A stretch of DNA of 35,868 bases from an uncultured Francisellaceae bacterium. GTDB taxonomy: Bacteria; Pseudomonadota; Gammaproteobacteria; UBA6186; Azoamicaceae. Position numbers and translations under genes: made by a program. Within the stretch, counting starts at the first letter, position 1. Every line of letters starts with the position of its first letter. The stretch is taken from assembly GCA_903827925.1 (NCBI GenBank), contig CAIKKE010000050.1, positions 1-35,868 of the forward strand, read 5' to 3'. The notes below the pieces were generated by a model. That model ran no database searches, had not been told where the DNA came from, and saw only the letters and a program-made list of their open reading frames with translations. Of the stretch, positions 252 through 34,571 are shown piece after piece.

Positions 252-1214
252 CTATTTGTCAAGCTCTTCACTCTTAAGCTTATTAATTTCTTCTATTGTC
301 AGTTTTGTTACTTTTATGATAAAGTTAATATCAGAACCTTCTGCTAACATAATGCGAGCGGTTTCTTTTTTGTTCTCGACTCTACCTCTATCTATACCTT
401 GAGATATGCCTTGAGATATGCCTTCTTCTTGAAATTTACGCGCTAATGTACCCATAATTTTCTCCCTTACTACTGGAATAGTATTTAATTGTTTAACAAA
501 TTCTTCTTGATTACTAACATTGCCTACTAACATTATATAGTATAAACAATTTTCAATGTAAGTTAATAGTAGAATTTCATCGTTACCAATTTTTTCTAAA
601 GCATCAATAATGAATTGCTTTAAGTCATTTATTACTAATAATAAATCCCTATCTCTAGCATGTTTTTGCAGATATTCCATTAATGCAACTAAATTATGTT
701 TTTTTAATTCATCGTCTGAAAAAAGTGTAATATCAACTAAATGCGCAGGCTGAGCTAAGGTCTGTTTAGCTAATTCTTGATCATTGAATAGGTCGAAAAT
801 ATTTAAAGAATACGGATAAGGTTTTCGATTTGCTTGTTCTTGGTAAAATAATATTGGGAATACAATCGGTAAAGTAGTGGCTTTTGGATGTTCCTGCAAA
901 TGTTGCATAATAATAGCTAACTGATAGCGTAGAATTCTAAGTGGCATCATTTTTTTTGGTGAACTTTGATGTTCTGCCAATATATAAAGATAGTTGCCTG
1001 TATTGTTGTCTAATTTGCTGTAATACAATACATCTGAAAATTGCTCTTTTAATTCTTCATCAAGTAATGAGGTATTACAAAATTTTAGATCATCAAGGTT
1101 GATTTTATTTAACACAAATGCTGGTAAGTGAGCTCTAAAAAAATCTTTAGCAACATCAATATTTTTTAGCGTAGAACGAAATAATGCATCATGTGGATTA
1201 GGAATTTTACTCAT
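252..1214 (-). CDS. Rpn family recombination-promoting nuclease / PD-(D/E)XK putative transposase
   Basis: A 320-residue protein of the Rpn (RpnA/transposase_31-like) family, whose members have a PD-(D/E)XK nuclease fold and promote RecA-independent recombination. The N-terminus has the family opening PNPHDALFRSTL. Likely active-site residues are Asp61 in FSDVLYYSK and Glu81/Gln83 in LAEHQSS, followed by the conserved RILRYQ helix. The C-terminus carries the usual Gly-Gln repeats (GISQGISQG), encoded by a 12-bp tandem duplication near 395-425. The frame can be extended seven codons to a TTG at 1235, but the ATG at 1214 fits the family start better; neither has a strong ribosome site. It appears intact and transcribes towards the left end. 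The nuclease activity is a family property, not shown here. Confidence 0.9.
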   Translation of the reverse strand: MSKIPNPHDALFRSTLKNIDVAKDFFRAHLPAFVLNKINLDDLKFCNTSLLDEELKEQFSDVLYYSKLDNNTGNYLYILAEHQSSPKKMMPLRILRYQLAIIMQHLQEHPKATTLPIVFPILFYQEQANRKPYPYSLNIFDLFNDQELAKQTLAQPAHLVDITLFSDDELKKHNLVALMEYLQKHARDRDLLLVINDLKQFIIDALEKIGNDEILLLTYIENCLYYIMLVGNVSNQEEFVKQLNTIPVVREKIMGTLARKFQEEGISQGISQGIDRGRVENKKETARIMLAEGSDINFIIKVTKLTIEEINKLKSEELDK

Positions 1215-1236
1215 TATATCAGTTCGCCCATCCAAT

Positions 1237-1670: not shown

Positions 1671-1706
1671 CTCACCCACACCAGACGCACCAGAGCGTTT
1701 TCGCTT
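1671..1706 (-). other. oriT: Putative oriT nic region with hairpin
   Basis: This 36-base island has 21 G or C bases, in flanks that are almost all A/T. On the minus strand it reads a perfect hairpin AGCG-AAAA-CGCT (1694-1705), then CTGGTGC, then CTGGTGTGGGTGAG (1684 down to 1671). MobF relaxases such as F TraI and R388 TrwC bind a hairpin a few bases 5' of nic, and the F nic context contains a GGTGT/GG-type core as I recall it. The relaxase and an apparent RHH accessory gene end just to the right. The assignment is by architecture and resemblance; the exact nick site is not proven. Confidence 0.5.
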
Positions 1707-1779: not shown

Positions 1780-1973
1780 TTATGCAATTTTATGCAAATC
1801 TTATGCTGATTTTATGCAAAATAATAAAAATCTATAACTCATTGATTTATAAGACTTTTTTAAACATAACAATTTTGATCAATTTAAATTCAGCATAAAT
1901 CAACATAAATTTAGCATATGGCGACATAAGATTTGCATAAAACTGCATATAATTTAGCATAAATGAACATAAT
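1780..1973. repeat. Helically phased TTATGC / GCATAA hexamer array (putative accessory-protein sites of oriT)
   Basis: Four TTATGC motifs start at 1780, 1790, 1801 and 1812. Eight copies of the opposite orientation, (G/A)CATA(A/T), start at 1893, 1903, 1914, 1924, 1935, 1945, 1957 and 1968. Steps are 10, 11 and 11 in the first block and 10, 11, 10, 11, 10, 12 and 11 in the second, so every copy falls on about the same face of the helix. This is typical of cooperative binding by small ribbon-helix-helix proteins. The adjacent gene encodes a protein with two such segments, and the putative nic patch is 75 bases to the left. Confidence 0.75.
1835..1847 (-). promoter_or_regulatory. Putative IHF binding site
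   Basis: The plus strand TAACTCATTGATT is an exact match to the reverse complement of the IHF consensus WATCAANNNNTTR. It lies between the two opposed hexamer blocks, where a sharp bend would bring them together. IHF sites occur in the oriT of F and R388. A chance match in AT-rich DNA cannot be excluded. Confidence 0.4.
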
Positions 1974-2136: not shown

Positions 2137-2790
2137 TCAAATCAAATAAGCTGCTTGTTCTTTGAATAATTTTAAAAGCATATTATCAGTTTTTAAATGT
2201 ACTTCATCAATAATTTTTTTAGGATCCTCAACTGTTTGATTAACTAATTTTTCTAATAATATACAAGCAGTAATTTGATGCTTGATCGCAATTTTATGTA
2301 GATCAGATAACTCTTGAACATCTGTCATTAAGTTATTCTGTATAAAAAAACTTTCAACCAATCTTCTAATTAATGGTATGACTTTTAATTGTAGTCTTGT
2401 AGATTCACTGCTTAACCATGTAAACAACATTGTTTCTATGCTAACACACAGTCGTTGTTTCTTAGTATTAAAATTCATTTGTTGTAATAAATTTTCGGTT
2501 TCTTCAAATGCTAAATTACGTAAAATTTCCCCTTTCTCTTCGGTAGCCAAAATCAATTGTTCTAATAATTTAGCTGTGAAAATAATATATCCCATTTCAT
2601 TACGATGAATTTGATTATATCCACTGCTTAGCTTAATTGTATAGTTATAGTTAAGCTCTACCGGACCTTGTTGCATTTTTTGATATAATAAATCTCTAAC
2701 AAATTTAGAAATAGTAATTTTATTTTTTTGGGCACTACCAATGATCCAATTGGCTAAATAATCATCAAATATAATACTAACAATTTTCAT
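2137..2790 (-). CDS. Putative relaxosome accessory protein with two ribbon-helix-helix segments (TraY/TrwA-like role)
   Basis: A 217-residue protein. Two segments each look like a ribbon-helix-helix DNA-binding unit, a short beta strand then two helices. One covers residues ~1-40 (KIVSIIFDD then an ITISKFVRDLL helix). The other covers ~110-150 (QRLCVSIET then VIPLIRRLVESFF). Linked RHH units in one chain are known from F TraY. Two helical stretches follow each unit and may mediate assembly. The ATG overlaps the traI stop as ATGA, with AAGGAG eight bases upstream, so it is the last gene of the transfer operon. The phased hexamer array begins about 165 bases downstream. I infer that it binds that array and recruits TraI. 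There is no close sequence match to a named family. Confidence 0.6.
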   Translation of the reverse strand: MKIVSIIFDDYLANWIIGSAQKNKITISKFVRDLLYQKMQQGPVELNYNYTIKLSSGYNQIHRNEMGYIIFTAKLLEQLILATEEKGEILRNLAFEETENLLQQMNFNTKKQRLCVSIETMLFTWLSSESTRLQLKVIPLIRRLVESFFIQNNLMTDVQELSDLHKIAIKHQITACILLEKLVNQTVEDPKKIIDEVHLKTDNMLLKLFKEQAAYLI

Positions 2791-5700
2791 AGACTTAACT
2801 CCTTATTTAACTGTAGGTTTTTAGTAACTGCTGGCGTATTAGTTGTCTCTATAGCTTTAACAACTTCTGGTGATTTTTGGAGTTCTGCAGATTGCAATGA
2901 TTTATTAATAGAATTAACTCCTAAATGTTTCAACACATCATTAAAATCCACTTTATTCATTCCTGGAATTTTTTCTGGATAAGCAATAGATACTTCTAAA
3001 CCACGTTCTTTATAAAAATTAGCTGCCGTTAACAATGTTTTATTAGAAATCGCATTAGCTCCATCATAATCAGCACATAAAACTACTTTTTGAACATCAT
3101 TTGGTAATGGTACATTTTTAAGATTAGATACTGATAATGCTGCAATTATAGTGTTGTTTGGTTTAGCTTGAGCAATACTTAAAGCAGTTTCTATTCCTTC
3201 AGCTATATAAACGGTATTTCTAACTTTACCTTGGTTAACAGTAACTGCTGCATTAATCATACTACCTAGGTTAGCTTTAACAGTCGCTTTTCTAGATTCC
3301 CCTTGATCATCAACATAATTAGAATTTAGTTTATTACCATCTTTGTTTAAAAAAATACGCACGATCCCTTGAATTTGATCTTGTTCATTTTTAATTGGAG
3401 CTAGTAGTGCTGGGATAAACCGATTTAAATCTGGATGCTTTAATTTAGCACAAAATCTAAAATCACTAGGGATGCATCCATTAATCCCTCTAAATTCTCG
3501 CAAATATTTTTCAGCTAAGGTGCCGAAAATAGAGGTGCCACTATTATAAATTTTATTAACATATGCAATTTTTTTGAGATCTAACGTAGTAATATTTTTT
3601 GATTTTTGGTTGGTATTGGCGTTAATTGGTTTAGTAAACAATTTATTTATAGATCCAAGATGCAACGAACTAGATAATTCATTGATAGCAGCCTTAAAAT
3701 CATGATTAAAATGTTCTGTATAAAGCGATAATAGATTTTTTCCACCCAAACCTTTTTCAAAATTATGCCAATATCCAGCTTTATCACCAGATAATTTAAC
3801 TACTAAAGAACCTTTTTTACCCCATCTAGCCTCTAGATTACTCGTTTTTTGTGGTTGCCCTAACCAATTGGTTGCATGTTGTAAAATATTGCTATGCAAC
3901 CTATTAATTACTTGCTCAATAGTGACTGTTTGAGATTTTTCGTATAAAGAATTTTTTACAGTAACAACTTTAGGAGGTGATGTAAAAGCAGGTTCTTTTT
4001 CGGCAATACCAGTAATATTGCTGGTCATCTGATCTACTTTGGCTCGAACTTTGTTTTTTTCAGGATCTAAAAATTCTAAAGAACTACGAACATCAAGTAC
4101 TCGTTGTTCCAATGCGTGTTGGTAGCTCTCAATATGATCTACTAATAAAGTAACTTGATCGCCTCTAGTTACACTTACTAAAAACTCATTAACTGATGTA
4201 AGTTTAGGAATGTTTGATGCCTTTCTGGTTGCAGGGTTCGGGTAACTGTGCCATATAGCTTGATCTTTACAATATGCATTGGTGGGTGATTTTTTTAAAT
4301 TAATTCTCAAATCATTCCCAATTCGATCTTGAACGACAGCAGTACTATCTTTATTGATTTCTGTTACTTTAACCAATTTGGAACTAGAAAGATTTTGGTT
4401 TAAATTAACTGCAGACTCTTTAGTTATAAGTACATCACCCACCTTGATTTCTTTGCTAAGAATTTCTCTACTATAACCTCCTTTTGCTAAAGCAATGGTC
4501 ATTTGCTTATCTGCTCCTTGTGCTATAAAAGTGGTGGTTGCATAAGCGTGATCCCAATGTTGATTAGTAAATTCTTTTAAATTTAAGAGAATTTCTTTAC
4601 CATTTTGCAATAAAATAGTTGCATCATGGTTTTGATCAATTGACTTGATAGTCGCGGTTTGACCATTACATATACCAACAACTTCATTATTTTTTAACCA
4701 TCTGATTTGATCGTTAGTCATTAACTTGCGCGCTTCTTGTCGATAAACATTAATATTACATGGGCTTTTTTCAGGTGACCAAACAATTTGTTCCTGGGTT
4801 ACAGGATGTTCTAAAGTTAAAGTTTGGTTGTCTAAATCTTTATGTTTGATTAGATAATATTCATGGTTTTTGACCTTTAACTCTATAGAGGGTTTAAAAA
4901 AAGTAATTAAATCTTGTTCTTTAAAGTAATAAATTTTTTGTTGTTCAGCTTTGGTTAATTTTACTTGAGTTAAATTATGGCAATTAACTTCCAGACCAAT
5001 TAATTGATTAGCTTGTTTTAATCCTTGCCGAATTTCATGATTTACTAATTTGCGATCAGCATGTTCTGGGGTAATTAATATAGTATTTAGCCTTTCTTCT
5101 GGAGTTTTTGCTAAATATAATTCTGCCATCTTCATTAATCGCTCTTGATGCTCTGGAATTTCCACCAAAGAATCACCTAATCTTTTTAAAGCCTCAGGAA
5201 TTTGATTTTTATAAATATGTTGCATCACATTTAAGGTTTTAGCTGATTTGAAGCGAACATTTTCAGTTATAAAAACGGATTGCATCTCGGAGCCCAACAT
5301 TAAATAAAAGATCATACCTGCTTCAATTGAGTATAATTGTCGATGATCACCCATTACAACTAACCGAGCATCTAATTGTTCGACTTTAGTAAGGATCGCA
5401 AACATTTCAGCAGTTGAAACAAATGATGCTTCATCTAATATTAATAGTTTATTAGTGCCATACTCTAACTTAGCGAGAGTTGGATCTAGATTTAATAATT
5501 TTTCACTTTCAATTAAAAATTTGCGTAAAGTCATAGGTTTAATGCCAGCTCGTAATAATAAATCTTGACTACTTAAGTTTTGACTACCCTCTTGCAGCCG
5601 TTCTTTAGCACCGGTTGTTGGGGTTAACCCTATAATTTCAAAACCAGAGTCTTTACATAATTTATTTAAACTGCGAATCATTGTGGTTTTTCCAGATCCA

Positions 5701-7877
5701 GCTATTCCTTGGATCCCAACTATTCGATCACCAGTAGTTAATGCTAATTTAATTGCATCTTGTTGTCCTTTAGTTAAATTATTAGGTAAATCTATTTGGG
5801 TACTAATTGGATCAATAGTTTTTTGGTTAGATGTTATTAATTTTAGACAAGACTGTTCTAATGAAAGATTAGCTTTGGTGGTAACCAATCCTTCTTTCAC
5901 CGTAATTAATGATTGTTGTAATGCTAGATCTAATTCAGTTTGCAAGACTTCTTTAGGAACGGTGATCCCTAAACTAAATAGTTCTAGTTGTAGTTTTTTT
6001 AACGAAAATACTGCATTATATTGTTGATGTTTACTAATAACCCAATGTACTAGAGAATTAGCAGTATTAGTTTGCCAATTAGTTTTATCGATATGATTAT
6101 TAATTAAATCTATTTGATTATTTAATTTTGGATGGCACATTAAAGCTGAAACATAATCAATAGATTTTTTATTGTCTAAATGACATTCTTTGATCCCATG
6201 TTTCAGTAATGCACTAATGGCAGCTTGAGGTTTATTAATTTTGTTAGACCAAAGGATCCTAGTGCCAAATTGTTTAGCATAAGATTGTAATCTATTAAGC
6301 TGATTGCTGGAAATACTACTATGCAGATCTAAGATCCAAATTTGTTTAGCTTGAAATAATCTATATGCTGGAATTGGTTGATTTTTGATTTTTTCTGCTC
6401 GATTTTCGCAACTTATTAAAAAACCTTCTATAGTCTGAACTCGTTGTAATCCTAACTCTTTGGAAAATTCTGCTTTTCTTTTCAATGTTTGAGTAATTCC
6501 TAGCGGATAAAATCCATATTTATAAGATAGATCTACGAATGTTTTCATGGTGAAGGTATAATTAGTTGGATTTTTAGCACTTACGACCAGTTGGCAGTCA
6601 GCATTAGTTAATAAAGTTTTTAAGACTGGTTGCATCTCTTTGAACTCAGTGGTTTTTTTAGTCAAATAATTAGCAGCCATTCCAGAAAACATTGGACATA
6701 GTTTATTTTTACCTTGACGCATATTAAGAATATTTAACATTTCTAAATCACGTGCAGTTTGAGTCGTACACAAATCATTAGTTAAATATAATAATTCACC
6801 AGATTTAAACTGCTCCGCTATTACTTTATTGATTAATTCTGGAGAATAATTGCGAATACTTAAGCCTCCTGCAGTTTTAATTAACTCCTTGGTAGTAAAC
6901 ACTCCTCGCCAATTACTTAATTCTTTACTAGCTTTAGTTACAGCTTGGTAAGCTAAGTGATATGGATTAGGTGGGGTTACTGCACCTCGTTCTAATGCTT
7001 GTTTACTATAGTTTTTAAGCCATTCTATACTTGAACCACAACGCATTAATTCCATTGTCCAAGCTAATTCTAAATGCTCTGGATCAACAGCTATTTTTCG
7101 TTCACGAGTATTAAAATTAGCAATTTGTGCAGCCTTGCTACCCTCTAGATTTTGTTTTTCTAATTCTTTAGTGATTTGCTCTCGACGTTTAGAAAATTGT
7201 TTAATTAACTTTTCTGAAAATCCTTTTAATTCAAATAACCCTTGTTCTGAGGTTTGGGTAATTTCAAACCCAGCTTTCATCAATTCTTGAGCTAATTTAC
7301 CACGATAAATTACCCCTAATAACATTTTATTATCATAAACTTCATCGAAATATAAAGTTCGCCATTTTTGATCAGATCTAAGAGTTGCATTCATAATAAT
7401 ACAGTGATCATGTAAATTAGGATCTAGTTCCCGAGAATCTGTATGCTCAAATTTAGCAATTAATAAGTTGTTGGTTTTTTCAATTGTGGTTTTACCATTG
7501 TTTTTAACTCTAGTTGCTGCAAAGTTCTCTTCTAAATATTTTAATGCTGCGTTTACGGCGATCTTATGTGCTTTCAATACTCGCTCATCTTTACCCACAA
7601 TTGCTAAAATTGACACTGATTTAGGGGCAGAAAATGTTAAGTCATACCCTGGTCGATGATTTTTAGTAGTTGCTTCCATGGTAACTGTTGGTGATAATTT
7701 GCCTTCTAGTTTAGCAATAAAATCTGGTAATGTAGCATTACCTTCTAAATCTAATAATTCTGCACCCTTACCGAACCATACTCCTAAAGCAGGTTCTCCT
7801 TCTTTAGCATAATAATTATCTTCTTGATAATAGCTGCCAGCTTTGGCGGCTGATTTTAAAGTGTAAATGCTTAACAT
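2787..7877 (-). CDS. traI: TraI-like conjugative relaxase/helicase with C-terminal primase-Toprim region
   Basis: A 1696-residue MobF relaxase, close in length to F TraI (about 1756). The N-terminus has two tyrosine pairs, Tyr16/17 and Tyr22/23, nearly as in F TraI, and a metal-binding His triad at His145, His156 and His158 (LHDHC). A RecD-like helicase follows, with Walker A GIAGSGKTT near residue 725 and DEXX-box LILDEAS near 812. The C-terminus (~1330-1650) is unlike F TraI. It has a WHNFEKGLGGKNLLSL segment typical of plasmid primase-like proteins, then a Toprim-type region with VYIAEGIETALS (~1555) and VVLCADYDGANA (~1600). It should nick oriT, unwind the strand and perhaps prime the complement in the recipient. 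It shares one base with the traD stop. Confidence 0.93.
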   Translation of the reverse strand: MLSIYTLKSAAKAGSYYQEDNYYAKEGEPALGVWFGKGAELLDLEGNATLPDFIAKLEGKLSPTVTMEATTKNHRPGYDLTFSAPKSVSILAIVGKDERVLKAHKIAVNAALKYLEENFAATRVKNNGKTTIEKTNNLLIAKFEHTDSRELDPNLHDHCIIMNATLRSDQKWRTLYFDEVYDNKMLLGVIYRGKLAQELMKAGFEITQTSEQGLFELKGFSEKLIKQFSKRREQITKELEKQNLEGSKAAQIANFNTRERKIAVDPEHLELAWTMELMRCGSSIEWLKNYSKQALERGAVTPPNPYHLAYQAVTKASKELSNWRGVFTTKELIKTAGGLSIRNYSPELINKVIAEQFKSGELLYLTNDLCTTQTARDLEMLNILNMRQGKNKLCPMFSGMAANYLTKKTTEFKEMQPVLKTLLTNADCQLVVSAKNPTNYTFTMKTFVDLSYKYGFYPLGITQTLKRKAEFSKELGLQRVQTIEGFLISCENRAEKIKNQPIPAYRLFQAKQIWILDLHSSISSNQLNRLQSYAKQFGTRILWSNKINKPQAAISALLKHGIKECHLDNKKSIDYVSALMCHPKLNNQIDLINNHIDKTNWQTNTANSLVHWVISKHQQYNAVFSLKKLQLELFSLGITVPKEVLQTELDLALQQSLITVKEGLVTTKANLSLEQSCLKLITSNQKTIDPISTQIDLPNNLTKGQQDAIKLALTTGDRIVGIQGIAGSGKTTMIRSLNKLCKDSGFEIIGLTPTTGAKERLQEGSQNLSSQDLLLRAGIKPMTLRKFLIESEKLLNLDPTLAKLEYGTNKLLILDEASFVSTAEMFAILTKVEQLDARLVVMGDHRQLYSIEAGMIFYLMLGSEMQSVFITENVRFKSAKTLNVMQHIYKNQIPEALKRLGDSLVEIPEHQERLMKMAELYLAKTPEERLNTILITPEHADRKLVNHEIRQGLKQANQLIGLEVNCHNLTQVKLTKAEQQKIYYFKEQDLITFFKPSIELKVKNHEYYLIKHKDLDNQTLTLEHPVTQEQIVWSPEKSPCNINVYRQEARKLMTNDQIRWLKNNEVVGICNGQTATIKSIDQNHDATILLQNGKEILLNLKEFTNQHWDHAYATTTFIAQGADKQMTIALAKGGYSREILSKEIKVGDVLITKESAVNLNQNLSSSKLVKVTEINKDSTAVVQDRIGNDLRINLKKSPTNAYCKDQAIWHSYPNPATRKASNIPKLTSVNEFLVSVTRGDQVTLLVDHIESYQHALEQRVLDVRSSLEFLDPEKNKVRAKVDQMTSNITGIAEKEPAFTSPPKVVTVKNSLYEKSQTVTIEQVINRLHSNILQHATNWLGQPQKTSNLEARWGKKGSLVVKLSGDKAGYWHNFEKGLGGKNLLSLYTEHFNHDFKAAINELSSSLHLGSINKLFTKPINANTNQKSKNITTLDLKKIAYVNKIYNSGTSIFGTLAEKYLREFRGINGCIPSDFRFCAKLKHPDLNRFIPALLAPIKNEQDQIQGIVRIFLNKDGNKLNSNYVDDQGESRKATVKANLGSMINAAVTVNQGKVRNTVYIAEGIETALSIAQAKPNNTIIAALSVSNLKNVPLPNDVQKVVLCADYDGANAISNKTLLTAANFYKERGLEVSIAYPEKIPGMNKVDFNDVLKHLGVNSINKSLQSAELQKSPEVVKAIETTNTPAVTKNLQLNKELSL

Positions 7878-9745
7878 TAGTTAAACTCCACTTCTTGTAC
7901 CGTTGGTTCTTTTTTGGTAATTGTTTTATTTTTTTTTACTTTTTTAATAGTTGGTTCTTTAATTTTTTCCCCTTCAGTTGTTTGGGTAACGACAGTGTTA
8001 GTTGTTATATTTGACTGATTGGCAGTTTCTGAAGATGGTTTTGGTTTGGAAGATATTAAGGCCAAGGACTTGATCGGTCTTTTTTTAGGTTTTAAAGTGA
8101 CTTTAGTAACTGGAGTATTTTCCGGCAATACTATATAAGCTTCACAATCATTTAATTTTAAAAACTCAGTATCTAAAATTAGTTGTTCTTTACGGCGTTC
8201 TTGATGTACTGATACTCCATCTCTAATATCATTTGCTCCATAAGAAAATCCTTCGCGTTGCTCAATAATTTCTCGTTGTCCAGTAAGCCTTGACATCCAT
8301 TGAGCAGTATCTGGACATTTGGTGCGATAGCAAAAATTAGTGTTATACATAGATAGCAATGCTTCTGATTCATCTCGACCATAAATGGCTCGCAATTGAT
8401 GAATGTCTTGAAAAGCCGTAACCGTACAAACTCCAAATTTACGACCTTGCGATAATAATAAATGAAGGCTACTTAATTTATTTAAACTAGCTAATTCATC
8501 AATTAAAAACCAAGTACGCCGTTCAAATGATGGCGGTAGTGATAACATGCTCCGAGCTGCAACATCTAACCATACTGAAATTAACGGTTTTAATGCTTCT
8601 AATTTTTCAGCACTAGCTGCAATAAAAATCCAGCCTTGGTTTTGTTCACTTTGTAGCCAGCGTTTAATTGAAAATAATGGATCAAGTCCTTCATCTTTTA
8701 AGTATAATAATGATTTACAATAAGTAGCCAAAGTTGATTTAATCGATAGTGCCATTTTTTCTAAAGATTCGGTAACTAATGATTCGGCCACAGTACCTTG
8801 TAATAATTCGTTAATTAATTTGAGATCACCGCTAAACATTGGTTTTAACAATGATTTAGTTTTAGTATCATTAATGCTTTTTAACTTTTCAGCAAGCGTT
8901 GCAAAAATAGTCCGTGCAGAATTGATCCAAAATGGATCGCTGCCAGTTAAATGTGCTGGCATTAAAGATGCAGCTATTGCTTCGAAATCTGCAAGATCTT
9001 GTGCTTCTTGCCAAATATTCCAAGCAGGACAACGCTCATCTAAAGGATTTAAAATAACATCTAGATCGGCGCGGTAATAATGTTGAATAAAAGTACCGGA
9101 ATCATCATAAACAATTGCTCGTTCCTGACGATTACGAACTTGATCCATCAATTCCATCATGCAAACGGATTTACCCGAACCAGTCGTGCCGCTAATTAAA
9201 ATATGTTTGGTTTCAGAATCTTTGATTAAAGGGACTCCAGCAATTTTTAGATCTGAACATTTATTATGTTTTTTAAGAAACTTCTTTAATTCTTTTGGCT
9301 TTAAAAATAATGCACCTCTAACTCCTTGGTCGATTTTTTGTAATCTTCCTCTTTGGCTTAATAAAATTATAATTATTAATAAAGATCCAGCTGTAATTTT
9401 TAAACTACTAAATAATGATCTATAAATAGTTTGATAAAAATTAGTTAACTGTTGATGCAAAAATGTATTATTAACAAATTGTTTTGTAGCAATTTTAACT
9501 GTTTTGCCATTTAATTCCTTAACAGTATGAGTAGATTGATTGCCTTGTAATCTCAATTTTACTTGAGCACAACTATAGCTGCCTAACAAATACCATTGAT
9601 AATTATTGGTATTTTTATAAAGATTATATCCAATAGTTACAAGGTAAATTAAAGCAGCTATTAGTAAAATTCTTTTTGACACTTGCCCAAACATTCGAAT
9701 AGAATGTATAGTAACTTGACCACCCCTAGTATAGTTTTTAAACAT
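7877..9745 (-). CDS. traD: Type IV coupling protein TraD
   Basis: A 622-residue inner-membrane ATPase that links the relaxosome to the secretion channel. The N-terminus MFKNYTRGGQVTIHSIRM is characteristic of TraD. Two membrane segments fall near residues 27-45 and 115-130. Walker A is ISGTTGSGKSVC near 185-193 and Walker B is TWFLIDELASL near 410. The tail (~550-622) is rich in Lys, Thr and Pro. AGGA lies nine bases before the ATG. It is shorter than F TraD (about 717) but all core motifs are present. It follows traG after a 418-base gap that holds a plus-strand gene, and it overlaps traI by one base. Confidence 0.95.
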   Translation of the reverse strand: MFKNYTRGGQVTIHSIRMFGQVSKRILLIAALIYLVTIGYNLYKNTNNYQWYLLGSYSCAQVKLRLQGNQSTHTVKELNGKTVKIATKQFVNNTFLHQQLTNFYQTIYRSLFSSLKITAGSLLIIIILLSQRGRLQKIDQGVRGALFLKPKELKKFLKKHNKCSDLKIAGVPLIKDSETKHILISGTTGSGKSVCMMELMDQVRNRQERAIVYDDSGTFIQHYYRADLDVILNPLDERCPAWNIWQEAQDLADFEAIAASLMPAHLTGSDPFWINSARTIFATLAEKLKSINDTKTKSLLKPMFSGDLKLINELLQGTVAESLVTESLEKMALSIKSTLATYCKSLLYLKDEGLDPLFSIKRWLQSEQNQGWIFIAASAEKLEALKPLISVWLDVAARSMLSLPPSFERRTWFLIDELASLNKLSSLHLLLSQGRKFGVCTVTAFQDIHQLRAIYGRDESEALLSMYNTNFCYRTKCPDTAQWMSRLTGQREIIEQREGFSYGANDIRDGVSVHQERRKEQLILDTEFLKLNDCEAYIVLPENTPVTKVTLKPKKRPIKSLALISSKPKPSSETANQSNITTNTVVTQTTEGEKIKEPTIKKVKKNKTITKKEPTVQEVEFN

Positions 9746-27468: not shown

Positions 27469-28049
27469 ATTATCCTGAAACAATTCACAAAATAAACGAT
27501 TGGTCATTTAAATTTAGATATGAGTTTTATAAGAAATTAGAATGTTTTTTATCTTCTGGAATGATAATTGATTATATAAGTGCCAAGTTAATTAAATTTA
27601 ACAAATTAGCTTTGCTATCAACTAAGCCACCAGTGGAACTAAACATTATTAACAGTCCTTTATTTATGCATGACAAATCGTTTTCTTTTGCTGTTTTTTC
27701 ATCTAATAAACCATTTTTATGGATTGATACTTTTGATAACAATAAATTTTATGAACTAAAGTGTAAAAAAATGGATAATTTTGGTTTTACTTCTGCAATA
27801 TCGCTTTACGCTGGTGATAAAGATCAAACAATTTCTATTTCTTTTGCTACGAAAAGGACAAATAAAGATATTAATAATTATTACTTGGAAAACATTAAAT
27901 ATCTATATAAAATTGCCAGTTTTGTTGAAAAAGTAGCTTTACCAATGTTTTGTGAGATGTTTTCCCTAAAACTAAATGGTAGTTACTTTAGTACAATAAG
28001 CAATTTAAACCCTCATGCAAGAATTTTTCTTGCTGTAAACAATGTTTAG
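27441..28049 (+). CDS. Stand-alone autoinducer-binding-like protein (LuxR N-domain-like, no HTH)
   Basis: A 202-residue cytoplasmic protein. Its second half resembles the ligand-binding domain of LuxR-type receptors. MDNFGFTSAISLYAGDKDQ followed by ISISFATKR parallels the FGIRSGITIPI / MSMFTMAS pattern of TraR-like sensors, and a long helix with IKYLYKIASFVEKV follows. No DNA-binding domain is present, and I do not see the canonical lactone-contact Trp/Tyr pattern. Its reading frame starts within the end of the XRE gene (28-base overlap), so the two are probably coupled and may form a split sensor-regulator. The family assignment is by eye and uncertain. Confidence 0.55.
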   Translation: MEENLYNKIDYPETIHKINDWSFKFRYEFYKKLECFLSSGMIIDYISAKLIKFNKLALLSTKPPVELNIINSPLFMHDKSFSFAVFSSNKPFLWIDTFDNNKFYELKCKKMDNFGFTSAISLYAGDKDQTISISFATKRTNKDINNYYLENIKYLYKIASFVEKVALPMFCEMFSLKLNGSYFSTISNLNPHARIFLAVNNV

Positions 28050-28068
28050 GCAATCTAAGAGCAAAAAT

Positions 28069-29361
28069 ATGAATAAACTAAAATTGGTAATTTGTGCAAC
28101 TTTTGGTAATTGTTTTGAAGTGTATGACTTTATAATTTACCAATTACTAGCTAACCATATATCAAAGCATTTTTTTGATATACATTTTAAAAATGCTTTT
28201 CTTTGGACTCAATTAATTTTCATATTAACCACTATTTTGTCCAGACCGATAGGAGGATTAATTTTTGGGTATTTAGCAGATCTAAAAGGAAGAAAATTAA
28301 GTTTAGAGAGCTCTATTTTAATGTCTGGGGTATGCACAGGAATGATTGGTTTAATTCCTTCTTATGAAAAGTTAGGTTTTTTTTCTACATTGTTTTTGAT
28401 AATCTTAAGATTTCTTCAAGGGGTATCATTAGGCGGAGAACAAGGAACATCTATTTCATTTTTACTTGAACATTCTTCTCCTAAAGCAAAAGGATTTTTA
28501 TCTAGTTTTTGTTGTTTTGGTCAACACATAGGTATATTGCTTGCTATAACTGCTACCTCCATTTATAGCCTACATATTAGTAAAATAGATCTTTCTGAAC
28601 AGTTATGGAGAGTTTTATTTATACTTTCTTTCTGTTTCGGGTGGTTCGGATATTGGATCAGAAAAAAAACCAACGAAACTATAGACTTTTTACTTTGCAA
28701 CTATTGTAGTGAAGAAAAAACATCTCTGTTTAATGAATCAAAATCGTTTATATGTAATAATAAAGCTTTATTTGTATCTATATTTTTTATCGTGTCTTTT
28801 GGAAGTTTCATTTCCTATACTGTTTTTATTATTGGTAATGGTTATTTAAAACAACAAACAAATTCTTTAGCAATATTTAAACATATACAATATATTATGT
28901 CTTTTTTGGTTATACTATCTATACCGATCTTTGGATTTTTATCAGATAAAATAGGAAGGAAAACTATAATAAGCCATTCCATTTTAACTATTTCTGCGTT
29001 ATCTATCCCATTCTTTCAATCGCTTAAATCTATCCCCAATTATACTACTTTAATAGTTGCCATGTTATTAGCTATTTCTTGTGGTGCATATTTTTCTGTA
29101 ACTCCCACCATTATTGCAGAATCACTACCAACAAAATCACGCTGTATAACTTATGCTATTTTTTATACTATTCCAGCAGCTATTATCTCTAGCATTTCTC
29201 CGTTTTTATCTAATTGGTTTATAAAGCTAGATCCTATTTATATTTCTTACGTAACAATATGCTTAGCTATTTCTTCTATTATATCTCTTAAATCGTTGGA
29301 GGAACCACTATATATTTACGGTAAACTATCCAAATATTCTTATGAGTTCTTAAAACCTTAA
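28069..29361 (+). CDS. MFS transporter, metabolite:H+ symporter (ProP-like)
   Basis: A 430-residue, 12-helix MFS transporter of the metabolite:H+ symporter type that includes ProP, ShiA and KgtP. The opening FGNCFEVYDFIIYQLLA is typical. The MFS loop motif GYLADLKGRK falls near residues 67-76 and is echoed by GFLSDKIGRKT after helix 7. RFLQGVSLGGEQG (~114-126) is also characteristic. The frame extends nine codons upstream to 28042 and would then overlap the preceding gene. I use the ATG at 28069, which gives MNKLKLV. The substrate cannot be read from sequence; osmolytes, organic acids or a signal molecule are possible. Confidence 0.88.
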   Translation: MNKLKLVICATFGNCFEVYDFIIYQLLANHISKHFFDIHFKNAFLWTQLIFILTTILSRPIGGLIFGYLADLKGRKLSLESSILMSGVCTGMIGLIPSYEKLGFFSTLFLIILRFLQGVSLGGEQGTSISFLLEHSSPKAKGFLSSFCCFGQHIGILLAITATSIYSLHISKIDLSEQLWRVLFILSFCFGWFGYWIRKKTNETIDFLLCNYCSEEKTSLFNESKSFICNNKALFVSIFFIVSFGSFISYTVFIIGNGYLKQQTNSLAIFKHIQYIMSFLVILSIPIFGFLSDKIGRKTIISHSILTISALSIPFFQSLKSIPNYTTLIVAMLLAISCGAYFSVTPTIIAESLPTKSRCITYAIFYTIPAAIISSISPFLSNWFIKLDPIYISYVTICLAISSIISLKSLEEPLYIYGKLSKYSYEFLKP

Positions 29362-29474
29362 AAAATATTTATTAATTGCATTATTACTATATTTACAAGC
29401 CAAATAAAGATAGACAACCCTTAAAATCAAGGCTATTATTAATAGCAAATACTAAAGAAATTATGGAGATTTCA

Positions 29475-30071
29475 ATGCCATCAATCGTTAAAACAGCTAT
29501 ACAAATTTTTACCGTACAAAATCATATCCAGCTATTAACTTTAAAACAAAAATCATTATTAGTTTCTTTACCTTTACTTTCAACTTCTAAAGATACTATT
29601 GCAAGAATGATAGAAATCATAAAAACCAAAGGTAAAGCAGCAGGACTTGCAGCTCCACAAATAGGTGTTAACGAGCGTATTATTATTTGTAGCTTTACAT
29701 GTGATGTAAATGATTTAGAAATTATGATTAACCCAACTTATGTTAATAATGAAACCATAAAAGAAGAAGGTTGGGAAGGTTGTTTCTCTATACCGCTTAC
29801 TTTTGCTAAAGTTTCTCGCTGGAAAAATATAGACGTATCCTATTATACACTTGATGGCAATCTTATTAAGAAACAATTACATGGATTTTCAGCTAGAGTA
29901 TATCAGCACGAATGTGATCACCTGGAAGGGATCTTAATGACCGAACCAGCATCTGAGTTAAAAATTTTTACAGCAGAAGAAGAGTTTAATGCCTTTCTTC
30001 AAATTGTTCGCCAAGAAAGAGAATCTGTTATAAAACGAGGTATCCCAGCTGCAAAACTGTGCAACTCATAA
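29475..30071 (+). CDS. def: Peptide deformylase
   Basis: A 198-residue metal-dependent hydrolase that removes the N-formyl group from new proteins. All three family motifs are present: GLAAPQIG (57-64), EGCFS (101-105, Cys103 a metal ligand) and QHECDHLEG (144-152, His145, Glu146 and His149). In motif 1 the usual GVG before LAAPQ is AAG. The open frame reaches back to 29376, but the ATG at 29475 has GGAG six bases upstream and gives a family-like N-terminus. It is the last gene of the plus-strand set, 113 bases after the transporter. On a plasmid it is probably a second copy beside the chromosomal def. Confidence 0.93.
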   Translation: MPSIVKTAIQIFTVQNHIQLLTLKQKSLLVSLPLLSTSKDTIARMIEIIKTKGKAAGLAAPQIGVNERIIICSFTCDVNDLEIMINPTYVNNETIKEEGWEGCFSIPLTFAKVSRWKNIDVSYYTLDGNLIKKQLHGFSARVYQHECDHLEGILMTEPASELKIFTAEEEFNAFLQIVRQERESVIKRGIPAAKLCNS

Positions 30072-31562: not shown

Positions 31563-32555
31563 TTAAATAATCCTTTCTAAATATGTAACCAAATATTGAC
31601 ATAATTCTTCATAATTAACATGCCTAATGGTTTTATCAACAACTATACAAGGTAATCCTTTGTGGTTTATTTTAAAAGTAAATAATTTTTTCCCTAAAGA
31701 AGATTTATACTTTATTGCTTTAATGAGATAATTATCTTTGTTATTTTTTGTTGCATTGAGCAGATTTGCTTCTAATTTTGCTGGCGAAGTGATTGTAACA
31801 CCAATCTCTGGAGCGATTTTTAATAAATTTAAACGCATCTGTGGCGAATCTTTTAATATAGAAACTATTTTTAGCGCAAGATTATTTGACAATCCATGAA
31901 TATCTAAAATTAATTTAACAATTTCCGAGGGAATCTTTGCATAAGCCATTAAATCATATATCTTTGACAAAGAGATTTTCAATTTGTCAGACAGATCCTT
32001 TTCATTTTTAAATACTCCATTATCAAGAAGTTTTTTATAAAGCATTGCATTTGAATAATTACTTATATCTTTTCTTTCTCGATTTTCTACTTCTTGATAA
32101 AGCAACGCTTCTTCAATATTAATTATGTTTTTCTTAATCACCAAAAATGGAATATTTAATTGCAAACACGCTTCATATCTTCTACGACCAAAAATAACTT
32201 CATATTTAATATTATTATATGGCTTCGGGTGAGGACGAATTAATCCTGGTTGAAGTTGTCCATTATCTTTTATGGATCTTACAAGTTCTTGAATATTCCC
32301 CATATCACCATCTAAGCGGTTAGCATATTTCCATGGCTCACATTGTTTGGGATCAACGTTAAACAATTCATTCTCACTAAAAACAACTCCTGTTGCCGTT
32401 TTAAAATAAGGAGCCAAATCATTACGGTACTCATGACGAAGTCTTGTCTTTCCATACTGATCTTCATTATCAGCTTCTATTGGTTTAATTTGTCCACTCC
32501 TGACTAACATACCTAAAGGTCCCGAGGAATGAACAGTTTTTTTACTATTATCCAT
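31563..32555 (-). CDS. parB: ParB-family partition protein
   Basis: A 330-residue centromere-binding protein. The ParB N-terminal domain is visible at ~75-150, with VRSIKDNGQLQPGLIRPHP and the nucleotide-contact motif GRRRYEA. An HTH follows (~190-225, EKDLSDKLKISLSKIYDLM). The frame continues to 32639 inside parA, but the ATG at 32555 has AGGAGA six bases upstream and lies 16 bases after the parA stop, so the shorter form is preferred. No parS site could be identified by eye. Confidence 0.92.
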   Translation of the reverse strand: MDNSKKTVHSSGPLGMLVRSGQIKPIEADNEDQYGKTRLRHEYRNDLAPYFKTATGVVFSENELFNVDPKQCEPWKYANRLDGDMGNIQELVRSIKDNGQLQPGLIRPHPKPYNNIKYEVIFGRRRYEACLQLNIPFLVIKKNIINIEEALLYQEVENRERKDISNYSNAMLYKKLLDNGVFKNEKDLSDKLKISLSKIYDLMAYAKIPSEIVKLILDIHGLSNNLALKIVSILKDSPQMRLNLLKIAPEIGVTITSPAKLEANLLNATKNNKDNYLIKAIKYKSSLGKKLFTFKINHKGLPCIVVDKTIRHVNYEELCQYLVTYLERII

Positions 32556-32571
32556 TAATATTCTCCTACAA

Positions 32572-33777
32572 CTATTCTTGTTCTGATTGACGAAACCAAA
32601 TCTCTTTAAAATTTCCAATAATTTCCATGTTAACATCATTAAGGTGTTGCAAAGCTCTTCTGTGTGCTTCCCTACTACCTCTAGGTTTAGAAATATCGTA
32701 TATTGTTCCTAACTCATTGGAAGCTTTAGCAACCTCAATTGTTTCACACATATGGTTAGTAAGGATATAACGCCCAAACTGTTCTCTCATCATGTTTTCC
32801 ATTTGGAGCGCCTCATTGCTTCCCGTATGTTTGGCAAGCAATATTCTAAGATATTCTAACTTTTTTTCTGGTAACTCTTTAAATAAATTTCTTAAAGTTG
32901 CGGTATACATGATAAAGCTTGAATAATCATTCATACTAGGTGGAATAGGAATAATCATACCATCACAAGCGATAATAGAATTTAATGTTAAATAACCTAA
33001 ATTTGGCCCACAATCGATTAAAATAACATCATATTTATTTTTTATTAACTTAAGTGTGTTTTTTAATCTGAGAAAAGAAGAACCAAGTTGTTCATAATTA
33101 TTTTCTCTTTCATTTGGTAAAATAAGATCACAATCTTGTATAGCAAGATTAGCAGGTATAATATCAAAACCATTAAAGTGGGTTTTTAAAATAACTTGAG
33201 AAATGAGAGATGGATCGCGAATTAAAGCATTTGTTATCGTGTCTTCATACTTAAGTTCCAAGTCTGGTATCAAACCTGAACTAATTAAAGTAGCTGTTCC
33301 TTGTGCATCAAAATCTAGTAACAGCGCTTTCAATCCCTCCATGGCAATTTTTTTACCTAAATCTACAGCTGTTTCGGTCTTACCTACACCACCTTTTAAA
33401 TTTGAAATAGCTATAGTTAAAGGCTTTGATCCTTTTGGTCTTTCATACCTGGTATTAGCTTTATTTCTTAGAAAATTAATAGCCTCTAATGTAAATTTAT
33501 TTGTTGTTTTGCCATTTTCTTTTTTTTCTGATATAACCCCTGAAATATCTTTGTACTTTTCTAATAATTTTCTAAAAGTAGGATTGGAAATATTTACCAT
33601 TTTTGCTGCTTCAATGGCTCCCCAAGTTCTAGGCTTTTTCCTATTTTGTGGATTAGTTACTAAATTTCTAAGATTTAAAAGCATTTCATTTCCTGCTTGA
33701 TAAAACTTATCCATTAGTGCTTCTGGATTTTCTGTTCCATATGTTGCAAGATTTCTTTCTAAAATAGCTGTTTCCAC
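32572..33777 (-). CDS. parA: ParA-family partition ATPase (type Ia, N-terminal HTH)
   Basis: A 401-residue Walker-type partition ATPase. An N-terminal HTH (~52-75, WGAIEAAKMVNISNPTFRKL), as in P1/P7 ParA, suggests that it also represses its own promoter. The deviant Walker A is KGGVGKT at 128-134, followed by LLLDFDAQG (152-160), and the later ILIDCGPNLGYLT is Walker A' / B. GGAG lies four bases before the ATG. A promoter with an operator-like palindrome lies just upstream. Confidence 0.95.
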   Translation of the reverse strand: METAILERNLATYGTENPEALMDKFYQAGNEMLLNLRNLVTNPQNRKKPRTWGAIEAAKMVNISNPTFRKLLEKYKDISGVISEKKENGKTTNKFTLEAINFLRNKANTRYERPKGSKPLTIAISNLKGGVGKTETAVDLGKKIAMEGLKALLLDFDAQGTATLISSGLIPDLELKYEDTITNALIRDPSLISQVILKTHFNGFDIIPANLAIQDCDLILPNERENNYEQLGSSFLRLKNTLKLIKNKYDVILIDCGPNLGYLTLNSIIACDGMIIPIPPSMNDYSSFIMYTATLRNLFKELPEKKLEYLRILLAKHTGSNEALQMENMMREQFGRYILTNHMCETIEVAKASNELGTIYDISKPRGSREAHRRALQHLNDVNMEIIGNFKEIWFRQSEQE

Positions 33778-33937: not shown

Positions 33938-33980
33938 GTTAAAAACATCATATAGATCAAATAGATATGCATTTAACTGG

Positions 33981-34077
33981 TGACGTTTACAGGGAAGTTT
34001 GTGACGTTTACAGGGAAGCTTGTGACGTTTACAGTACAACAAAAGCTGAATTTTTATAAAACTGTGACGTTTATAGG
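33981..34077 (+). repeat. oriV: Iteron cluster, putative oriV
   Basis: Four directly repeated copies of GTGACGTTTACAGG start at 33981, 34002, 34022 and 34064. The third ends in GT and the fourth has GTTTATAGG. Steps are 21, 20 and 42 bases, that is two and four helical turns. This is the usual form of a Rep_3 iteron origin. The rep gene is on the same window, so the cluster is the likely replication origin. Confidence 0.85.
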
Positions 34078-34249
34078 ATAATCAAATAAATTGTATTAAA
34101 TTAAAGTTTAGTTGTTATTTATTTTTAACCTCTCATTAAAAGCTCAGAATAATGTTTAGGAGTAAAATAAGGTATTTTAATTTTAAACAGGCAATGTGAC
34201 GTTTACAGGATATGGATATTTAGAATCTTTACCAGAGATGGTTTATTAA

Positions 34250-34265
34250 ATTCGGAGCTCCGAAT
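34250..34265. repeat. 16-bp perfect palindrome, copy 1
   Basis: ATTCGGAGCTCCGAAT reads the same on both strands and is markedly GC-rich for this region. It is followed by AATG and, 30 bases on, an iteron. It may be the site of a dimeric DNA-binding protein or a partition element. Confidence 0.7.
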
Positions 34266-34369
34266 AATGAGAAAGCAAACGCTTTTATAAATAATGTGAC
34301 GTTTACAGGACAATGTATGTTGTTAATTATCATTACACTTGCTCTACGTAAGCAATATTTTTTAATAAA

Positions 34370-34385
34370 TTCGGAGCTCCGAATA
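34370..34385. repeat. 16-bp perfect palindrome, copy 2
   Basis: Identical to the copy 120 bases to the left, with the same flanks (AATAA/TTAAA on the left, AATG on the right). A decayed relative, AGCTCAGAATAATG, lies at 34141-34154. Confidence 0.7.
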
Positions 34386-34571
34386 ATGTTTAGGAGTAAG
34401 AAAGAGTATTTTAATTTTAAATAAATAATGTGATGTTTACTACCTACTAATAAAATTAACACAATAATTTTTTTTAGTTCTACAAAATATACTCTATAGC
34501 CACTTTTAGATGGATCCTAAACCCACAAATTTAGTCATCAATATCTAGATGTTTCATAGTTGCCAGCAGAT

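Follow-up and report, generated by a model that had tools for sequence, protein, structure and literature searches.

Ribbon-helix-helix (RHH) proteins that act on repeated sites within an origin of transfer (oriT) are known and include TraY, TraM, TrwA and SmpO. In parC of plasmid R1, the RHH protein ParR occupies 11-bp phased repeats arranged in two sets, as in the array described here, but these repeats flank the par promoter, the gene for the actin-like ParM is linked to them and there is no nic. At the F oriT, three TraY molecules (two direct and one inverted) lie within the arm from bp +43 to +94 and, together with IHF, fold the origin for the loading of TraI at nic (PMC12117103). For SmpO, an F7K substitution in the N-terminal strand region switched oriT specificity (PMC8136818).

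The locus compared here with these systems lies on a 35.9-kb contig (G000:C50), referred to over its whole length as the window, from a 1.46-Mb genome in 147 contigs. The relevant features are the following:

252-1235, minus strand: Rpn-family (Transposase_31) nuclease gene, the first gene beyond nic
1691-1677, minus strand: nic motif GGTGCGTCTGGTGTG, 94 bp from the near block
1694-1705, minus strand: inverted repeat AGCG-AAAA-CGCT directly 5' of nic, from sequence and fold; weak, and different in sequence in relatives
1780-1817, minus strand: near block of four TTATGC copies, which read GCATAA on the nic strand, at 94-126 bp on the 5' side of the nic motif
1835-1847, minus strand: IHF-consensus match AATCAATGAGTTA in the spacer, a perfect match roughly 156 bp away on the 5' side of the nic motif
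1864-1869, no strand assigned: thirteenth site ACATAA, isolated in the spacer between the blocks
1893-1972, plus strand: far block of eight [GA]CATA[AT] copies, which read TATG[CT] on the nic strand, at 206-280 bp on the 5' side of the nic motif
2137-2790, minus strand: 217-aa probable tandem RHH protein, last gene of the tra operon and presumed array binder, from internal duplication and family matches
2787-7877, minus strand: MobF (F-type TraI) relaxase-helicase (MobF 273 bits, cut-off 100)
7877-9745, minus strand: F-type TraD coupling protein (TraD_Ftype 586 bits, cut-off 521)
31563-32639: ParB, the window's own partition gene
32572-33777: ParA, the window's own partition gene

Further tra-like genes reach 26.3 kb, and a Rep_3 initiator is also encoded on the contig together with parAB. 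The C-terminus of TraI matched DUF7146 and Toprim_3 (E 1e-16) and is primase-like, which makes the protein a relaxase-helicase-primase fusion. Upstream of parA and near rep/par, positions 33980-34440 hold about six GTGACGTTTACAGG-type repeats, which are probable Rep_3 iterons, and the palindrome TTCGGAGCTCCGAA with flanking AATAATG occurs at 34252-34265 and 34370-34383 as a candidate parS near parAB. Genes resembling those for an MFS transporter and a peptide deformylase were read from the sequence alone at 28042-30071.

Like the F oriT with its TraY sites (sbyA/C) and IHFa, the window combines a MobF/F-type TraI and TraD with a matching nic motif and a probable tandem-RHH accessory protein, and its sites lie 5' of nic in direct plus inverted orientation with an IHF consensus (PMC12117103). 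However, the window has 12 sites against the three TraY of F, and they are split between two blocks at distances of 94-280 bp to the nic motif; the RHH gene follows traI instead of standing at the operon head; no TraM gene was recognised in the window; and the IHF match lies between the blocks, whereas that of F lies between nic and the sites. With the staphylococcal pWBG749 SmpO/oriT system the locus shares a conserved nic core with diverged accessory sites, and it would also share an RHH specificity factor, a relaxase supplied in trans to mobilisable elements and recombination at oriT (PMC4652767, PMC8136818). That system differs in having two sites per oriT (ossA and ossB) against 12 in the window, one RHH unit in SmpO, and another type of relaxase and T4SS. 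The third likeness is to StbA and the stbDRs of R388, a long two-set array with a period of about 11 bp beside a MobF oriT (PMC3098194), although the stbDRs are 5+5 direct repeats around the stbABC promoter, are located on the leading side of oriT and function partly in segregation.

Our main reading, to which we give a probability of about 0.83, is that the array constitutes the accessory-protein half of an F-type (MobF) oriT to which the 217-aa protein would bind. An earlier, sequence-only reading had proposed a relaxosome-loading array, and this proposal gained support from the nic motif 94 bp away, from an 8+4 array with a different motif in a related genome (G010) and from the RHH genes beside other arrays. 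Its description of the array as a new type was too strong, because the known action of TraY, TraM, TrwA and SmpO on repeated oriT sites sets a precedent.

All 12 hexamers that had been reported in two opposed blocks were found as placed, plus the isolated one at 1864, which that reading had lacked. The TTATGC copies of the near block start at 1780, 1790, 1801 and 1812 (spacings of 10, 11 and 11), and the [GA]CATA[AT] copies of the far block, in the opposed orientation, start at 1893, 1903, 1914, 1924, 1935, 1945, 1957 and 1967 (spacings of 10, 11, 10, 11, 10, 12 and 10). Both density and spacing exceeded shuffled controls, confirming that the array is real: the intergenic region 1236-2136 contains 13 RCATA/TATGY pentamers within 193 bp, whereas 2000 dinucleotide shuffles averaged 3.3 and never exceeded 10, and no 200-bp stretch elsewhere in the window holds more than four such hexamers. 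When exact k-mers were chained at helical spacing, the CATA chain reached 8 against a shuffle maximum of 7 (n=1000). Phase coherence was 0.97 at 10.6 bp for the eight-site block, which 1 of 2000 null draws equalled, and 0.99 at 10.7 bp for the four-site block. The claim that all sites face one side of the helix therefore holds within each block but finds no clear support across both, since coherence of the pooled blocks was only 0.55 at 10.5 bp (best value, 0.87 at 10.27 bp).

The IHF-consensus match reported between the blocks was indeed present and perfect, though the pattern has 14 matches across the whole window. The G010 spacer has a comparable IHF-type match, AATCAATAATTTA, at about -155 relative to the nic motif. 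A search of the host genome did not confirm canonical IHF, the sole clear HU/IHF protein scoring 78 bits, below the IHF cut-offs (111); the role of IHF was downgraded after this search.

The nic motif in the window is related to that of F and lies, on the nic strand, to the 3' side of the accessory sites. Its core, GCGTNNGGTGTG, is common to the F plasmid (NC_002483), the window, G010, contigs C138 and C129 of the window's own genome and loci of a sister genus. In F, the core is matched by GCGTGGGGTGTG beside traM, the F nic region; from alignment with F nic, cleavage in the window is predicted on the minus strand between 1678 (T) and 1677 (G). Four nic-motif sites occur in the window's own genome, on C50, C138, C129 and, with one mismatch, C89. 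A MobF relaxase was detected in 5 of the 11 genomes of the order (G000, G010, G002, G003 and G005), and all five have an intergenic nic motif adjoining repeats; in G001 (74% complete) a nic motif is present and no relaxase was detected. Many other one-mismatch matches, including those in G004, G006 and G009, fell in apparent coding sequence with no array nearby, and we regarded them as chance occurrences. As the first gene beyond nic, the Rpn-family gene would reach the recipient first and the tra genes last, if orientation follows F. By sequence resemblance, an Rpn-family gene is likewise first beyond nic in C138 and C129, and G005:C121 has one about 1.8 kb past its nic motif (other Rpn-family gene coordinates: L037 693-1706, L004 15218-15937 and L049 3789-4781).

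That an RHH-type gene ends the transfer operon near the array was upheld: the gene ends 164 bp away, and its product has two probable RHH units. In the 217-aa protein a unit of about 105 aa has been duplicated in tandem, as evidenced by the homology of its halves (P 4e-6, hhalign of the N against the C half) and by the match of the N and C halves to a family of single-unit proteins of about 105 aa in G001, G002 and G005 (E 3e-7 and 9.5e-9, respectively). A search with the single-unit profile matched the G010 protein twice, once per half. The relation of the tandem protein to its single-unit relatives resembles that of F TraY to R1 TraY. Assignment to a known fold was less sharp, with weak matches to DUF6290/RHH_1 and to CopG/Arc-type RHH entries in PHROGs and Pfam. 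One single-unit member was modelled at pLDDT 83 and displayed an N-terminal extended stretch, two helices and then a long helical hairpin; its best fold match was the RHH domain of NikR (probability 0.99 but E 0.24), many other RHH proteins came next with weak significance, and NikR was also the top match in a PDB sequence search (E 0.017). Since NikR leads both searches, at weak significance, an RHH fold is likely but not proven for the family. The AlphaFold2 model of the full-length tandem protein, built from four sequences, reached a pLDDT of 41 and was left unused. Among named genomes, plasmids and viral contigs, and in a class-wide sample of 368 genomes, the 217-aa protein had no match beyond the same genus; profile libraries and PDB sequences yielded no TraY match, and Pfam/NCBIfam no match to a StbA model. 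The other long proteins (C138, C111 and G010) are 41-50% identical to that of the window, and at position 7 of the first beta strand the window protein has I where its three closest relatives have R; in SmpO, the specificity switch came from the single change F7K.

To compare the layout, we used MAG contigs of one family together with pLLO and F, and block offsets were counted from the first base of the nic motif. G010 is a same-genus MAG from a lake, labelled uncultured Francisellaceae, and G003 belongs to a sister genus. Near blocks made of different motifs occupied almost the same positions: -126/-115/-104/-94 in the window (GCATA), -127/-117/-106/-96 in G010 (GGGAT) and -128/-118/-107/-97 in G003:C36 (TGTC[AC]). 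The far block is of opposite orientation: the window has eight TATG[CT] from -280 to -206, G010 has ATCCC at eight positions from -266 to -193 (six exact, one with one mismatch and one unreadable), and G003:C36 has eight [GT]GACA sites, interrupted by a gap, from -292 to -199. Strong 8+4 arrays were thus found in two elements, the window and G010, and the G010 array adjoins the same tandem gene with a different motif; G003 fits in the near block and roughly in the far block. In C138 the far block (ATNYCAAA, -256 to -204) is good and the near block degenerate, while a lysine-rich 112-aa ORF that spans array and nic motif there (L004 14603-14941) is probably spurious. G005:C75 carries opposed CATAC and GTATG blocks of looser geometry. 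No RHH gene was found adjoining the G003, C129 or C89 arrays.

In G001:C6, G002:C53 and G005:C75, C49, C70 and C121, a single-unit RHH gene is separated from a nic motif by about 230-560 bp of DNA that contains repeats. The arrays of these single-unit relatives are looser than that of the window, and the sister-genome loci are merely consistent with the layout because several were no better than shuffles by exact k-mer chains, a crude measure for such arrays. On G001:C6, G002:C53 and G005:C75, the nic motif, repeats and RHH gene occur with no relaxase in the stretch read, an arrangement consistent with mobilisation in trans by analogy with the staphylococcal precedent. Sister-genus elements with a nic motif and array-like repeats and with no relaxase in the stretch read (L039, L041, L044, L045 and L046) are candidate mobilisable elements; the genes on some of them include an integrase, an AlpA-like gene or an AAA ATPase. 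In pLLO of Legionella longbeachae (L051 25868-27010), two small genes follow traI and are convergent with it, and beyond them GTATAC-type repeats and a nic-like TTGCGTGGTGTGTG were seen by eye only; these features suggest a wider distribution of the layout. Relatives that keep the gene without the array, which the sequence-only reading had held to count against it, were found in two cases. On C111, a 4.2-kb contig, the RHH gene adjoins a partial traI, and on G002:C57 the gene next to traI is a divergent single-unit one. Because the nic motif as well as the array is missing within the stretch read, both look like remnants, not counter-examples.

Homology between co-resident and related elements breaks at the nic motif. 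The window and C129 of its own genome share 89.6% identity over 731 bp, in a stretch that starts 30 bp ahead of the nic motif and leads off in the direction opposite to the array, and G010 and C89 share 86.1% over 711 bp, starting 9 bp before it. In neither pair did BLASTN return a match across the array, and the repeats on C129 and C89 spell different words (AGGACAA; TGTAAGACA). Since the pairs match from nic onward and are unalignable across the array, arrays appear to have been exchanged at nic, and the position of the junctions independently supports identification of the motif as nic.

The following mechanism would account for the arrangement. As a single chain with two different RHH units, the tandem protein would probably form a pseudo-dimer like F TraY, and a pseudo-dimer would read an asymmetric site of about 10 bp, head to tail, one per helical turn. 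The far block would hold eight copies of the protein and the near block four in reverse; a bend in the spacer, at the IHF-like consensus or by another HU-family protein, would bring the two rows side by side, and the folded origin would present nic to TraI for loading. The motif of the array would then serve as an identity code: since nic is shared, TraI could cut several related elements, and the pairing of RHH protein and array would decide which of them is processed. It is possible, at somewhat below even odds in our estimate, that the whole is an undescribed architecture: a two-arm RHH array of 12 sites with fixed geometry to nic, whose exchangeable code is swapped at nic among co-resident plasmids and relaxase-less elements while one TraI pool cuts them all.

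A dual purpose, in which the complex of RHH protein and array licenses transfer and also regulates or stabilises the plasmid, is rather unlikely. It would follow StbA of R388 (PMC3098194) and ParR of NAH7, a KorA homologue that binds the oriT region and enhances transfer (PMC12421886), but there is no independent sign of a stability role, and the array stands beyond the last tra-operon gene, away from the operon promoter. The alternative that had been offered earlier, a ParR/parC-like centromere (a parC- or stbDR-like site at which a ParR- or StbA-like RHH protein segregates the plasmid), is very improbable. Phased repeats with RHH proteins are known at partition sites, and the R388 stbDRs, two sets of five 9-bp repeats 2 bp apart beside oriT, serve both stability and transfer (PMC3098194). 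The window, however, has its own ParA/ParB with TTCGGAGCTCCGAA palindromes near, no NTPase gene adjoins the array (its neighbours being traI/RHH gene and the Rpn-family nuclease gene), the distance from array to nic is fixed whichever motif is used, and arrays are found on integrase-bearing elements too. We consider it highly doubtful that the repeats are merely operators repressing a promoter such as that of the leading-region gene 252-1235: CopG/Arc-type RHH proteins, to which the weak PHROGs and Pfam matches point, are commonly repressors, yet the RHH gene comes last in a long operon that is read toward the array, some 545 bp and nic itself separate the array from the start of the leading-region gene, and neither the size of the array nor its locking to the nic motif would be explained. 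Replication iterons of the Rep_3 initiator, of which phased direct repeats are typical, can virtually be dismissed, as the plasmid's GTGACGTTTACAGG-type repeats at 33980-34440 near rep/par differ in sequence.

With the array read as the accessory-protein half of the oriT, a nic motif with a phased array at a fixed distance provides a computable rule for transfer origins, which are often absent from plasmid annotation, and this rule would help to predict which relaxase-less elements can be mobilised by a given conjugative plasmid. Natural arrays with different motifs beside related RHH proteins open the RHH-DNA recognition code and the specificity of the relaxosome to direct testing. If 12 proteins do load, the amount of accessory protein would be several times that in the solved F complex. 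Different array codes could also allow related plasmids and hitchhiker elements to distinguish one another.
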